Shown piece after piece: positions 3,221 to 49,441 of a DNA stretch of 64,000 nucleotides. Origin of the DNA: Niastella caeni (GTDB taxonomy: Bacteria > Bacteroidota > Bacteroidia > Chitinophagales > Chitinophagaceae); contig NZ_STFF01000008.1 of the NCBI RefSeq assembly GCF_004834005.1, positions 186,001 through 250,000 on the forward strand, given 5' to 3'. How positions within the stretch are numbered: the first letter of the stretch is position 1; each line of letters starts with the position of its first letter. The position numbers were made by a program, and so were the translations under genes. The notes under the pieces are model-generated. The model was not told the origin of the DNA. It did not search any database and saw nothing but the letters and a program-made list of their open reading frames with translations.

Positions 3221-3329
3221 TTGCTGATGTAAAAGTAATACAGTGAACAGGCGGTTTACAAATTTCGGCTGGCCTGTTTCTTTAGAATGACCGTATTGTT
3301 TAACCGGCGATAGAGAGTAGTATGTAGCA

Positions 3330-3535
3330 ATACAGGCAACAAGGCAACGAGGCATAAAGGCAAAGAGGGCATAAAGGCATAAAGGCAACGAGGCATAAAG
3401 GCAAAGAGGCATAAAGGCAACGAGGCATAAAGGCAAAACAATAGGCAATAGGTAGCCGCAATTGGTATCTGTAGCCGGCAATTTGCAATAGCCAGTCTAC
3501 AATTTGCAATAGGCAATTGGCAACTACACGTTACA
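3330..3535. repeat. Tandem word array GGCAACGAGGCATAAAGGC
   Basis: Roughly 110 bases of alternating GGCAACGAGG, GGCATAAAGG and GGCAAAGAGG words, followed to about 3535 by a second set (GGCAATAGG, CAATTTGCAATAG, CAATTGGC). Open frames read through it on the minus strand are low-complexity artefacts. The region 2849-3744 contains no gene I can support. Confidence 0.7.
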
Positions 3536-3589
3536 CGTAATACAGCTAAAAGCCCAAAGCCTAAAGTCGTAAGCAAAACTTTCAGCCAA

Positions 3590-3652
3590 GTTTTCATTTG
3601 CACATTTTCCCATTTGCACATTTTCGCATTTTCCCATTTGCACATTTATTTT
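3590..3652. repeat. Word repeat CATTTTCCCATTTGCA
   Basis: Four tandem copies of words such as CATTTGCACATTTTC and GCATTTTCCCATTTG sit about 95 bases upstream of the 154-aa gene. They are likely untranslated and could belong to its promoter region. Confidence 0.5.
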
Positions 3653-16536: not shown

Positions 16537-16715
16537 ATTAAAGCTACAAGGCACAAGGTTCAAGGTTCAAGGCACAAGGTTCCAAGGCACAAGGCACAAG
16601 GTTCAAGGCACAAGGTTCAAGGTTCAAGGCACAAGGATCAAGGCACAAGGCACAAGGTTCCAAGGCTCAAGGTTCAAGGCACAAGGTTCAAGGTTCAAGG
16701 TTCCAAGGCATAAAG
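16537..16715. repeat. Tandem word array AAGGCACAAGGTTCAAGG
   Basis: About 180 bases composed almost wholly of two words, AAGGCACAAGG and AAGGTTCAAGG, in irregular alternation. An open frame reads through it as a Lys/Arg-rich repeat, but this is an artefact of the words. Copy order is irregular and there are no unique spacers, so it is not a CRISPR array. Confidence 0.8.
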
Positions 16716-25212: not shown

Positions 25213-27999
25213 ATGAAAAACTTTACTCAATCGGCCTCGCGCGTGTACCTGGGGCTTTTGGTGAAAATTATTATCTGCACAATCTGGTTATTGTGCATTG
25301 CGTCGGCAGCCATGTCGCGCGTTCCGGTGTTGGGGCAGAGTCCGGCACCTCAAACGGTTTGTGCCGGTTCAAACCCCACCTTTACTATTGGAACTGTTAC
25401 GGGTACCAGCGGTACGGTAACTATTCAATGGCAGGTGAGTGTTAACGGCGGCGGTAGTTACAGCCCTATAACGAATGGAGCCAACTACAGCGGTGTTAAT
25501 ACTTCTACTTTAACCGTGTTAAATGTATCAACCGCATTCAATGGGAATATGTACCGGTGTGTAGTAACCGATGCTACGGGAAACTCCACCACTGTAGGTG
25601 CGTTGCTTACCGTAAATGCCACGCCGGCAGTTTCTTCGGCTACAAGATCAACGACAGTATGTGAAGGGGCAACCGGGGCCGGTTTGCAGGTATTTAATGA
25701 TGCCAGCCTTAGCTATCAATGGCAGGTGAGCATCAATAATGGTACCACGTGGAATAATGCCACGGCTGGCGACGGTTATTCAGGCGCTAATACGTATGAC
25801 CTTACCTATCCCACAGCTACTTTGGGTATGAGTGGTTATATATATAGGTATATTGCTACCAATATAACAACTGGTTGTTCTGCTACCAGTATTGCATTGG
25901 ATACCTTGTATGTATTATCGAAACCGGTATTCGGCAATAGCGGCAACCTTACTCCTGTAAGTGCAACAATTTGTCCGGGTGCTAGTACGAGCTTTACTGC
26001 TACTGCTACAGGTAGCGCTGCTATAGCCTATCAATGGCAATTGAAACCGGTGGCTTCGCCAACCTGGACCGACCTGGCCAATGATGCAGTGTACAGTGGT
26101 GCGCAAACCAATACCTTGCAATTAACAGGTTTTACTCCTTTTTCGGGCAATACCTATCAGTTACGCCTGGTGGCCAGTTATCCTTCTACCTTAGGTTGCG
26201 CCATGGCAACCAATCTGGGCGCTTTATCGGTACGTACCATGCCGTCAATTGCCGTTCAACCCAGGGATACTATTGTTTGTGCCAACAGCCCTGCCGGGTT
26301 TAGAGTAACTGCTGCGGGTAGTGTAACGCTGCAATACCTGTGGGAAACAGATAACGGCACAAACGGCGGTACATGGTCAACTGTAACCGGTGCTACAACG
26401 AACACACTAAGTTTAGGGGCGGTTACCACCGCCCTGAATGGCTACCGGTACCGGGTAACTGTTACTAACAGTTTTTGTGGTGGGCCAATTACTTCATTAG
26501 GTAGAACATTAACTGTTCGCCGGTCGGGGACCTGGCTGGGTGCAAAAGATACTGCATGGCAGGAACCATTGAACTGGTGTGGCGGCGTTCCTGATAATAC
26601 CATCGATGTGCTGGTGCCCAACTGGCCAACAAAGATGCCGCTGATCAGTGCCGGTACTGGCACTGCATTCTATAAAAGTATTGAAATTGAAAATGCAGCC
26701 CGCCTCACCATTAGCGGCGGAGTAATTGATAATATGACGGGGCCTTTTAATATCCAGGGAACTGTTGCTTATATAGCTACCGGTAACCAGGAAATATTCC
26801 CCGCCAACCACGGCTCGCTGGAGATCAATGGCAGTGGTAATAAATTTTTAAGCAATAATGTTGATGTAAGCAATAACCTGGTTTTGGGCGGTTCGGCTAA
26901 ACTGGTGACCCGCACAAATATCCTTACTATGCGAACCGGCAGTAATCCTATTGTGACCAGCGCCTTTACCGACCCGGCCACCAGTTGGATCGTTACCGGA
27001 AATGGGAGTGCCGGTGCGGGTAATACCGGTTTGGGTAGATTGCGTATTGAACAGGTAGATGCAGCCGATGGCGCTGTGTTGTTCCCGGTAGGGCCTACCC
27101 CTGCGGCTTATAATCCCATTCAGTTGACCAATGCCGGAACAGTAGATCATTTTGCCATTGCAGTTAATGATCAAATGATACCCGGTGGTGTATTTGGTTC
27201 AGGGGTTGTGAGAACATGGCTCGTGTCGGAATCGGTGAATGGAGGAAGTAATGTAACGTTGTCGCTGAAATGGCAAGGTGGCGAAGAGCAATCTTCTTTC
27301 GACAGAACACAAACGCAGATCATCCGTTCGAACGGAACACAAATTGTTGAGGCGAGTTTAAGAGGCCCGGCCAACGGTGCAAATCCATATGCCCGCGCCG
27401 ACGGTTCTTTTGCTACGCTTACCCAATTCAGTGTAACCAGCGGTGCGGTGGCATTACCTTTGGAGCTAAAATCGTTTACGGCACAAAAGTCCGGTAATGC
27501 AGCAGCAGGTTTAACCTGGAACATAACTGCTTCTACTACCGCGAAACATTTCAACGTACAAAGAGCAACCGATGGCGTTCATTTTATAACCATTGGGCAG
27601 GTGAATGCCGAGGCTGGCAAAACATCGTATAATTATACCGATAACCTGCCTGGCAGCGGCACCGTGTTTTATCGTTTGCAGATGACCGGGCAACAAAATG
27701 ATATTGCCTACAGCGCCATTCAATCATTGTTGTTTAACAAAACGAACCTGGTTCAGTTGAGGCCTTCGGCAACTAATGGTTCAACAACCTATGTATATTT
27801 ACAGGCAATGCACGAATCGATAGTTACTATTTATGTAACTGATATCACTGGCCGTGTGCATGCACGCAGGATGTTGCCCGTGAATAAAGGAGAGCACCTG
27901 TTGCCGCTCTGGATCGGTGGATTGAACAAAGGCGTGTACAATGTGCATGTGAAAGATTCGAAAGGAAATGCCAATGTGCTTACGTTGGTGAAACAATAG
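25213..27999 (+). CDS. Large secreted protein with Ig-like repeats and T9SS sorting domain
   Basis: 928 residues. The long signal peptide region is MKNFTQSASRVYLGLLVKII and following hydrophobic residues up to AMSRVPVLGQ. Four Ig-like modules occupy about 40-440, each with a TIQWQVSVNGG-type core (TIQWQVSV, LSYQWQVSI, IAYQWQLKP, LQYLWETDN). A middle region (about 440-740) is rich in Asn/Gly/Thr and looks like a beta-solenoid or adhesin stalk. A fibronectin-like piece (about 750-835) follows, then a C-terminal type IX sorting domain ending NVLTLVKQ. Export through T9SS and attachment to the surface are inferred. A ligand cannot be told. A terminator lies at 28077. Confidence 0.85.
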   Translation: MKNFTQSASRVYLGLLVKIIICTIWLLCIASAAMSRVPVLGQSPAPQTVCAGSNPTFTIGTVTGTSGTVTIQWQVSVNGGGSYSPITNGANYSGVNTSTLTVLNVSTAFNGNMYRCVVTDATGNSTTVGALLTVNATPAVSSATRSTTVCEGATGAGLQVFNDASLSYQWQVSINNGTTWNNATAGDGYSGANTYDLTYPTATLGMSGYIYRYIATNITTGCSATSIALDTLYVLSKPVFGNSGNLTPVSATICPGASTSFTATATGSAAIAYQWQLKPVASPTWTDLANDAVYSGAQTNTLQLTGFTPFSGNTYQLRLVASYPSTLGCAMATNLGALSVRTMPSIAVQPRDTIVCANSPAGFRVTAAGSVTLQYLWETDNGTNGGTWSTVTGATTNTLSLGAVTTALNGYRYRVTVTNSFCGGPITSLGRTLTVRRSGTWLGAKDTAWQEPLNWCGGVPDNTIDVLVPNWPTKMPLISAGTGTAFYKSIEIENAARLTISGGVIDNMTGPFNIQGTVAYIATGNQEIFPANHGSLEINGSGNKFLSNNVDVSNNLVLGGSAKLVTRTNILTMRTGSNPIVTSAFTDPATSWIVTGNGSAGAGNTGLGRLRIEQVDAADGAVLFPVGPTPAAYNPIQLTNAGTVDHFAIAVNDQMIPGGVFGSGVVRTWLVSESVNGGSNVTLSLKWQGGEEQSSFDRTQTQIIRSNGTQIVEASLRGPANGANPYARADGSFATLTQFSVTSGAVALPLELKSFTAQKSGNAAAGLTWNITASTTAKHFNVQRATDGVHFITIGQVNAEAGKTSYNYTDNLPGSGTVFYRLQMTGQQNDIAYSAIQSLLFNKTNLVQLRPSATNGSTTYVYLQAMHESIVTIYVTDITGRVHARRMLPVNKGEHLLPLWIGGLNKGVYNVHVKDSKGNANVLTLVKQ

Positions 28000-28000
28000 T

Positions 28001-28032
28001 GAGTAGCTAGTAGCGAGTGGCTAGTAGGGAGG
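28001..28032. repeat. Word repeat GTAGCTAGTAGCGAGTGGC
   Basis: GTGAGTAGCTAGTAGCGAG plus TGGCTAGTAGGG, directly after the stop of the T9SS protein gene. The same words form a hairpin at 41090-41195. Confidence 0.5.
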
Positions 28033-28076: not shown

Positions 28077-28112
28077 GGGTGAGTCGTCTATTATGGCGGC
28101 TCACCCTTTTTT
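28077..28112 (+). terminator. Terminator after the 928-aa T9SS protein gene
   Basis: GGGTGAGTCG (28077-28086) pairs with CGGCTCACCC (28097-28106), followed by TTTTTT. Confidence 0.82.
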
Positions 28113-28146
28113 ATGGGAGAAGGTTTTGAGAAGGTTGGCTGGTTTT

Positions 28147-28478
28147 ATAAGAAAATATTTTGCGCTATATGCTTATTGCCTGGCTTTATAAAGGAATTAT
28201 TGCCGCCTATGTATAGTGTAAGCGGCCGGATAATTGTTTTTCCCCGGCGATAAGTTAAAACCGGCAGGCTATAGTTGTTTTTATTTGGTTATAAGTTAAA
28301 AGGTTGAGGCTATAATAACTTTTTTCTGGTAGATAAGTTAAAGCCGGTGGGTTATAATTACTTTTTCAACGGCTATAAGTTAAAACAGATGAGTTATAAA
28401 TTTTTTTTCGGGGCGATAAGCAAATTGATCAGTTTTATAAGTTAATTCCTGAGGAAAATAAGGCAAGGGGTACAAAGA
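28147..28478. repeat. Phased array: ATAA-type motif every 20-21 bp, 16 units
   Basis: An ATAA or close variant begins at 28147, 28167, 28188, 28209, 28230, 28250, 28271, 28291, 28312, 28333, 28354, 28375, 28396, 28416, 28437 and 28458, a mean spacing of 20.7 bp. Between them lie GC-rich half-turns (CCGG, GGCT, CGGGGCG). From 28250 on, two unit types alternate: ATAAGTTAAAnCCGG-type and ATAATTnCTTTTTC-type. Three units are 20 rather than 21 bases long, so no reading frame is kept and the array is not coding. It ends at the ATG of the Fn3-like gene. Helically phased protein-binding sites or curved DNA are possible. Confidence 0.75.
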
Positions 28479-28480
28479 CT

Positions 28481-28714
28481 ATGTCGCCCATTAAAGAACT
28501 GAGCGTATCAATCGATCGCTCCGGTGAAGCAGTTATCAGGGTTAAAAAAGTGGCAGGCGCCAAAGCGTACATTCACCAGTATACAATCGACCCGCTTGTA
28601 GGTGACAATGTATGGGTTAACAAGGTAACTACCGATCCCGGCTACACTTTTACCGGTCTGAAATCGAAAGAGAAGTACTGGTTCCAGGTAATAGCTGTAG
28701 GATTGAACGGCTAG
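28481..28714 (+). pseudogene. Truncated fibronectin-III-like protein gene, in-frame TAG near the end
   Basis: 77 residues as read: MSPIKELSVSIDRSGEAVIR, then TFTGLKSKEKYWFQVIAVGLNG, the back half of a fibronectin type III domain with the conserved Leu/Tyr of strands E and F. In frame after the TAG (28712-28714) the sequence continues ESASPPVARVIQ and stops at TGA 28751. This looks like the natural last strand (compare SDPVSRxI endings in Chitinophagaceae Fn3 proteins, from memory). Relatives I recall also carry a helical N-terminal domain of over 100 residues that is missing here. It may be a broken gene or a short protein with a leaky stop. A strong terminator follows. Confidence 0.55.
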
Positions 28715-28740
28715 GAGTCTGCTTCTCCGCCAGTTGCCCG

Positions 28741-28818
28741 GGTTATTCAATGATAGATGAATAACCAACATATTACTTAATCTTTAGGAGCCCCGACCAT
28801 CGGGGCTCTCGTTTTTTT
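28741..28818 (+). terminator. Hairpin plus terminator after the Fn3-like gene
   Basis: GGTTATTCA/TGAATAACC (28741-28766) is followed by the terminator GAGCCCCGA-CCA-TCGGGGCTC with TTTTTTT (28788-28818). Confidence 0.85.
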
Positions 28819-42224: not shown

Positions 42225-42405
42225 AGAAATTAAGAATTAGGAATGAGAAAGGGAAGGCAGTTATAAATATCGAATATTGAATTTCCAGTGTTGAATATTG
42301 AAGTAGAAAACCCATTCGATAAAATGCAAATTGCATTTGCCTTCCCCTTTTGCTTACAGCTTGCAGCTTACAACTTGCAGCTTACAGCTTGCAGCTTGCA
42401 GCTTT
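42225..42405. repeat. Word repeats before the DUF885 gene
   Basis: Three word groups in a row: AATGAGAAATTAAGAATTAGG, the self-complementary AATATTGAATTTCCAG with GTTGAATATT, and tandem GCTTACAGCTTGCAGC words at 42350-42405. The last set reads open in the frame of the following gene but is not part of it. Confidence 0.55.
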
Positions 42406-49347: not shown

Positions 49348-49435
49348 TTATTTAGTTGTTAAGTTCATGAGTTTTTAAGTTAATCGGATTGAACTCAATA
49401 ACTGAATAACTCAATAACTGAATAACCCCTTAACT
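49345..49435. repeat. Word-repeat hairpin, AACTCAATAACTGAATAAC type
   Basis: The left arm starting GTTATTTAGTTGTTAAGTTC and the right arm GAACTCAATAACTGAATAAC pair at 18 of 21 positions. It is the same element as at 14422-14503. It sits between the convergent SET and RMD1 genes and overlaps the last bases of the SET gene. Confidence 0.72.
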
Positions 49436-49441
49436 GGCTTT

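Follow-up and report, generated by a model that had tools for sequence, protein, structure and literature searches.

Why should short A/T motifs recur at every second turn of the helix between two genes of Niastella caeni? The question is raised by an array at about 28143-28457 of a 64-kb stretch of this genome (the window), and the term window array is used here for that array proper. It is still an open question whether phased A/T tracts have any role in the bacterial chromosome; they have mostly been studied as a weak genome-wide signal (PMC3940949). With 20 discrete loci and a natural empty site, in which the letters drift and the two-turn period stays, this question becomes directly testable in a soil genus. 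We give an even chance to the reading that the window array belongs to a dispersed, non-coding, intergenic repeat of Niastella in which the phase of the double-stranded DNA matters, the DNA being curved, wrapped by protein, or both, with a putative binder and a putative function.

The window array and its flanks

The preliminary description of this locus listed 16 ATAA-type motifs at steps of 20-21 bp, and all 16 positions are correct. Thirteen of them are exact ATAA, the others are ATAT, ATGT and ATAG, and 15 of the 16 open with ATA. The steps (20, 21, 21, 21, 20, 21, 20, 21, 21, 21, 21, 21, 20, 21 and 21 bp; span 311 bp) take these two values only, and four of them are 20 bp, where three 20-base units had been counted. 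The window array is real. Chains of ATAA or ATAG at 20-21-bp steps reach a length of 12 in it (28140-28479) and of at most three in 2,000 dinucleotide-preserving shuffles. Among 40 stretches of the N. caeni genome and one congener (794,946 bp, both strands; two stretches were picked as holding known arrays), chains longer than four are found in the window array (12) and in the two known arrays (9 and 6), and nowhere else.

The A/T spectrum of the window array has its top at 20.6 bp with a power of 25.1, against a maximum of 16.0 in 1,000 shuffles (periods of 8-50 bp); a second, lower peak follows at 10.3 bp (power 11.5). The peak near 20.7 bp on which the preliminary description had staked the array therefore exists and exceeds all shuffles. 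When 10,188 tiles of 332 bp were compared, 13 had a power above 12.8, and all of these lie on three arrays, namely the window array (sampled twice), the G000:C15:269k array and the G004:C1:786k array; the next tile reached 12.6. Autocorrelation of base identity peaks at lags 41, 42 and 83 (z 6.8, 6.7 and 6.3) and at lag 21 (z 3.4; 500 shuffles), which bears out a super-period of 41-42 bp made by two alternating unit types. The alternation of A/T motifs with G+C-rich stretches, also proposed earlier, is supported as well. Along 250 bp of the window array, the A/T phase drifts within about 1 bp. The array and its flanks are composed of the following features:

28077..28106, + strand: intrinsic-terminator-like hairpin and T run (12 pairs, 8 of them G-C, TTTTTT tail)
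28143..28224, + strand: degenerate 5' units (starts 28147, 28167, 28188 and 28209; unit scores -1.6 to 4.2)
28225..28457, + strand: phased array core, in which units of type B (ATAATTACTTTTT-like) alternate with units of type A (ATAAGTTAAAA-like) at steps of 20-21 bp
28457..28750, + strand: pseudogene that has lost its 5' part; it covers residues 106-203 of a ~204-aa protein and has one TAG in frame

The terminator-like hairpin lies behind the gene at 25213-27999 and just ahead of the window array, and it is context outside the repeat. One short tandem repeat comes after the stop codon of the same gene. On the other side, the window array stops where the ~204-aa gene resumes at residue 106, and the last listed unit, at 28458, sits inside this gene remnant, with which homology starts at 28457. 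The array had been said to run into the ATG of a small Fn3-like gene. However, this ORF (28481-28714, no Pfam match) is contained in the 5'-truncated pseudogene that begins at 28457. The ~204-aa protein has five other matches in the N. caeni genome, all without stops.

A repeat family in the genus Niastella

When 59 genomes were searched at the DNA level, the best matches outside the window lay in the N. caeni genome itself and in the genus, and arrays of like build were seen at those places by reading. Two sequence-only models, one of four units (R1) and a broader one (R2), have matches in the identical seven of ten Niastella genomes (E<=0.01 for R1 and E<=0.001 for R2), and neither model matches in G003, G007 or G009, with at most 150 candidates scored per genome. 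The possibility, considered in the preliminary description, that all relatives lack the pattern is thus contradicted. A unit chain is present in 20 of 25 mapped loci, which are distributed as six in G001, five in G000, three each in G004 and G006, and one each in G002, G005 and G008. These chains have 5 to 39 units; their scores are above 50 at 16 loci and 39-46 at the other four (L102, L113, L114 and L115). The model matches without a chain (L107, L110, L112, L117 and L118) are uncounted, and weak matches in G006:C7 and G008:C1 were left outside the 20-locus count.

Among 244 genomes sampled from the family, at least four of which belong to Niastella, 13 outside the genus reach 1e-3 with R1 (best 4.7e-6). 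Inspection of these 13 weak loci and of two longer flanks found a chain only in L091 (9 units, score 31); these weak matches were attributed to chance and rejected. With R2, the N. caeni genome alone reaches 1e-6 among 298 genomes sampled from the order, and none of the 297 others does; both of these large searches applied stricter filters, by which weak matches were lost. A pattern scan of one genome per species for 84,980 species returned 50 stretches, and more than one match per stretch occurs in three Niastella vici stretches, the rumen contig L176 and the archaeal contig L178. The same kind of scan on viral contigs returned four stretches, none with a unit chain. The arrays form a scattered family, which in these searches has so far been seen only in one genus. 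The earlier remark, whose author knew no described Bacteroidota element of this kind, is supported in that no description of such arrays was found in the open-access literature (subscription papers lie mostly outside this scope).

The build of the units was analysed in 16 arrays (L102, L113, L115 and L116 were left out), whose G+C content is 29-38%. The A/T period is 20.5-20.85 bp in 13 of the 16, with a mean of 20.66 bp, despite differing letters; the other three (L111, L120 and L114) peak at 10.15-10.35 bp. In a two-type unit model, type B is roughly GG..GATAATTACTTTTTcc and type A is ATAAGTTAAAA. The tract is TTTTT in type B and AAAA in type A, on opposite strands, and the two take a nearly equal place in the unit. 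Thus, the common property is phase, and not strand or letters. Unit orientation flips within L010, L013, L106, L119 and L120, with a phase shift of about 3-5 bp at the orientation changes of L010, L013 and L119. Across 340 bp of L013, the A/T phase stays inside a 2.3-bp range.

Dispersal and insertion sites

REP and BIME elements are hairpin-forming palindromes, dispersed and intergenic, which are often found near gene ends. The Niastella arrays are likewise dispersed and intergenic, lying between ORFs of at least 90 aa at all 20 loci, with end overlaps of 6-12 bp in L106, L116 and L119. Unlike REP and BIME, their units are direct repeats, and the window array has no unusual RNA fold (z 0.25).

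An array sequence of up to ~660 bp is common to eight loci in four genomes, with a tail in seven, and all seven tail matches in the genus are at array loci. Homologous copies occur within single genomes, namely L009, L010 and L011 in G000, L103, L104, L105 and L121 in G001, L108 and L109 in G004, and L113-L115 in G006. Three arrays of the N. caeni genome are homologous along 118-355 bp (72-85%), and three loci in G006 have 279-762 bp in common at 80-85%; a further G006-type tail copy, 91% alike, is located near a contig end. Whole units have been gained or lost between copies. Since the end points of the array also vary between copies, it is not called a defined transposon.

The sites are unrelated. 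Nineteen flanking proteins were scanned, the ORF at 28481-28714 being excluded; four lack any Pfam match, and the others are of differing families, save for secretion tails in two. A constant partner gene was considered and rejected because the neighbours of the arrays are unrelated. The idea of a lone cis-element serving a small Fn3 gene fails too, as the window array is one of 20 array loci, whose neighbours are unrelated, and the Fn3 ORF belongs to a pseudogene. A rule by which the array lies on the strand of the preceding gene was rejected as well, since it holds at 13 of 20 loci and is no more than a tendency (two-sided P 0.26).

One site is newly occupied. In N. vici, the L104 array sits behind an OsmC-like gene, and in eight other genus genomes with this gene no chain is present there (0 of 8; ~1.5 kb was covered on each side, or less where a contig ended). 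In five of the eight, the next gene can be recognised as well. By eye, 7-bp-type repeats fill the OsmC-like gap in those five genomes, where N. vici has the phased array. The UvrA locus was considered as a second case of an empty site and set aside as uninformative, because its other neighbour is not common to G006 and G007. Two array sites are common to species (L010/L120 and L108/L116); each has kept synteny in one flank only, the opposite flank having different genes, and the flanks of L010 and L120 have diverged to 70-77%. Both pairs coincide with synteny breaks, and in these two cases only, the arrays might be hot spots of rearrangement. Because the family is missing from three of the ten genus genomes, it is dispensable.

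Much of this record fits a selfish, satellite-like repeat, that is, an old ~21-bp minisatellite which was copied round the genome and is decaying with no host function, so that its period would be that of the founder unit. Dispersed copies with variable end points, gain and loss of whole units, a site empty in eight other genomes, absence from part of the genus and the truncated gene beside the window array all speak for it. However, the arrays have one period in different sequences, they are found at species-shared sites whose flanks have diverged as far as those of L010 and L120, and their motif A/T bases are better preserved than those of the spacer, as described below. We consider the selfish repeat possible but doubtful.

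Phase, curvature and other readings

Between copies, motif A/T bases are better preserved than spacer A/T bases: 87% of 675 motif cells are identical versus 66% of 158 spacer cells (P=2e-9) in five homologous copy pairs, each pair within one genome. The G/C bases have the opposite trend (motif 68% of 115, spacer 77% of 302, P=0.08). Elsewhere in these alignments, outside the units, 83% of 896 A/T bases are identical, and the advantage of the motif over them is small (P=0.03). These identities fit a constraint on an A/T block plus a G/C block, but as all five pairs are within-genome, exchange between copies may contribute.

The evidence for selection on phase is mixed. Steps of 20 and 21 bp are mixed more evenly than in permutations (Fisher P 0.003 in a set of five arrays that includes one homologous pair, and 0.008 in a set of four), with P of 0.025 to 0.35 for single arrays among them, shorter runs not significant, and anchor jitter that may mimic phase locking and add to the result. 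In a stricter residual test of eight arrays, only L011 (P=0.002) and L108 (P=0.005) are significant, and the combined P is 0.81 because L119 and L120 carry 18-19-bp steps. A first pooled phase-lock test was set aside, since odd steps inflated its null.

Curvature was estimated by a wedge model and is a prediction only. Predicted curvature is above the shuffle mean in all 16 arrays, at P<=0.02 in seven of them, and it drops significantly in de-phased controls in four of the 16. In a ranking by mean ratio against 14,018 windows of the home contig, coding DNA included, the arrays range from the 86th percentile (the window array) to the 99.8th. Curved DNA, or a protein polymer on one face, was the explanation offered in the preliminary description; the helical period, a DNA-level cause and the predicted curvature of the family agree with it, but the window array itself is predicted to be weakly curved (P=0.19 against shuffles). 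That one face of the helix is involved is what we infer.

What counts seems to be less the exact letters than the shape, or a protein by which it is read. The units of ~20.65 bp repeat an ATA step and an A/T tract, either AAAA or TTTTT, at one helical position per two turns, with G+C-richer DNA between the tracts. In the preferred reading, the array would work as double-stranded DNA whose phase is relevant, either intrinsically curved or, more likely, curved and held by protein. The holder may be a nucleoid protein, or else a protein that binds many sites cooperatively, wrapping or coating one face, and the outcome would be a local architectural or topological node. Copies would have spread by duplication, and the window copy abuts a gene without its 5' half. 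We think it unlikely that a dedicated phase-reading system exists, in which a genus-specific protein, or a nucleoid protein in a special role, wraps or polymerises along the arrays by the phase of the A/T tracts and not by their letters. If true, such a system would make a chromatin node, positioned and either nucleosome-like or of the filament type, which also spreads as a DNA family.

Iterons are direct repeats sitting beside their own initiator gene. The Niastella arrays are direct repeats too, with a step of 20-21 bp within the iteron-like range of 17-22 bp, and they could mark places where a plasmid, phage or transposon lands or has left remnants, with its initiator or transposase binding each unit. 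Indeed, the plasmid-like contig L176 has direct repeats of 21-22 bp with similar letters, an A/T block and a G block, beside a Rep_3 initiator, and two inverted arms are seen in several arrays (L010, L013, L106, L119 and L120). However, the Niastella arrays are at 20 chromosomal loci, and no Rep_3 domain (PF01051) was found in the ten genus genomes. The 19 flanking proteins scanned include no transposase or initiator, searches of 72,556 plasmid and 50,697 phage records gave no match to the L108 array, those plasmid records gave none to the L109 tail, and the end points are variable. Sites of this kind are therefore improbable as an explanation. The units of L176 (1316-1464, RUG10609_asm_81), six to seven in number and adjoining a protein with both Rep_3 domains, are probably iterons of an uncatalogued plasmid. 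In L178 (Candidatus Methanovirga meridionalis, an archaeon with 25% G+C), a 20-bp tandem array with a very similar motif is present at 30-361, and it is probably unrelated to the Niastella family.

It is very improbable that the array acts through a structured transcript, as a tandem promoter or by encoding a protein of heptad repeats: B units hold TATAAT-like and TACTTTTT strings, but there are no Bacteroidota-type -33/-7 pairs in 12,162 array bases on both strands (about 0.2 expected), sigma-70-like sites are at chance level, the window array folds no better than its shuffles, and Rfam has no match at E<=1 around it. Six other loci gave just two Rfam matches, both below threshold, to eukaryotic families and located outside the arrays. 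Guide arrays of the TIGR, retron or CRISPR-like kind were also considered and are not favoured. As the preliminary description held, there is no coding heptad repeat, since 20-bp steps and stops break the frames; the arrays have no long ORF, and the longest stop-free run of the window array is 47 codons. One G006 copy has in its tail (L114, about 3300-3640, reverse strand) strict 21-bp steps in an open frame that reads D[ST]xLLTV-like heptads, but a stop interrupts this frame in a second copy, and its codon bias is slight (11, 9 and 16 changes of 110 per position).

Because coding, RNA structure and promoters are unsupported, a DNA element in which the A/T phase is read, as a bend or by a protein, is favoured. 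Helically phased A-tracts and intrinsic curvature in prokaryotes, with a genome-wide 10-11-bp signal, are the subject of Tong and Mrazek (2014; PMC3940949). Like the A-tracts of that paper, the arrays have short A/T runs in helix phase and a link to curvature and nucleoid proteins; unlike the signal described there, they are discrete, have a two-turn period and a common unit, and belong to a dispersed repeat family. Direct repeats of the heptamer TAACTGA, which occur in some Bacteroidetes too, are intergenic with 7-bp units of constant letters (PMC4679880). The Niastella arrays resemble them as intergenic direct-repeat arrays, whereas the excerpted text of PMC4679880 describes no two-turn phasing for the heptamers. 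The window also has many tandem repeats of 7 or 8 bp (27997-28031, 16547-16709, 3330-3438, 42352-42404, 49392-49436 and others), and these resemble the heptamer repeats as that text presents them.
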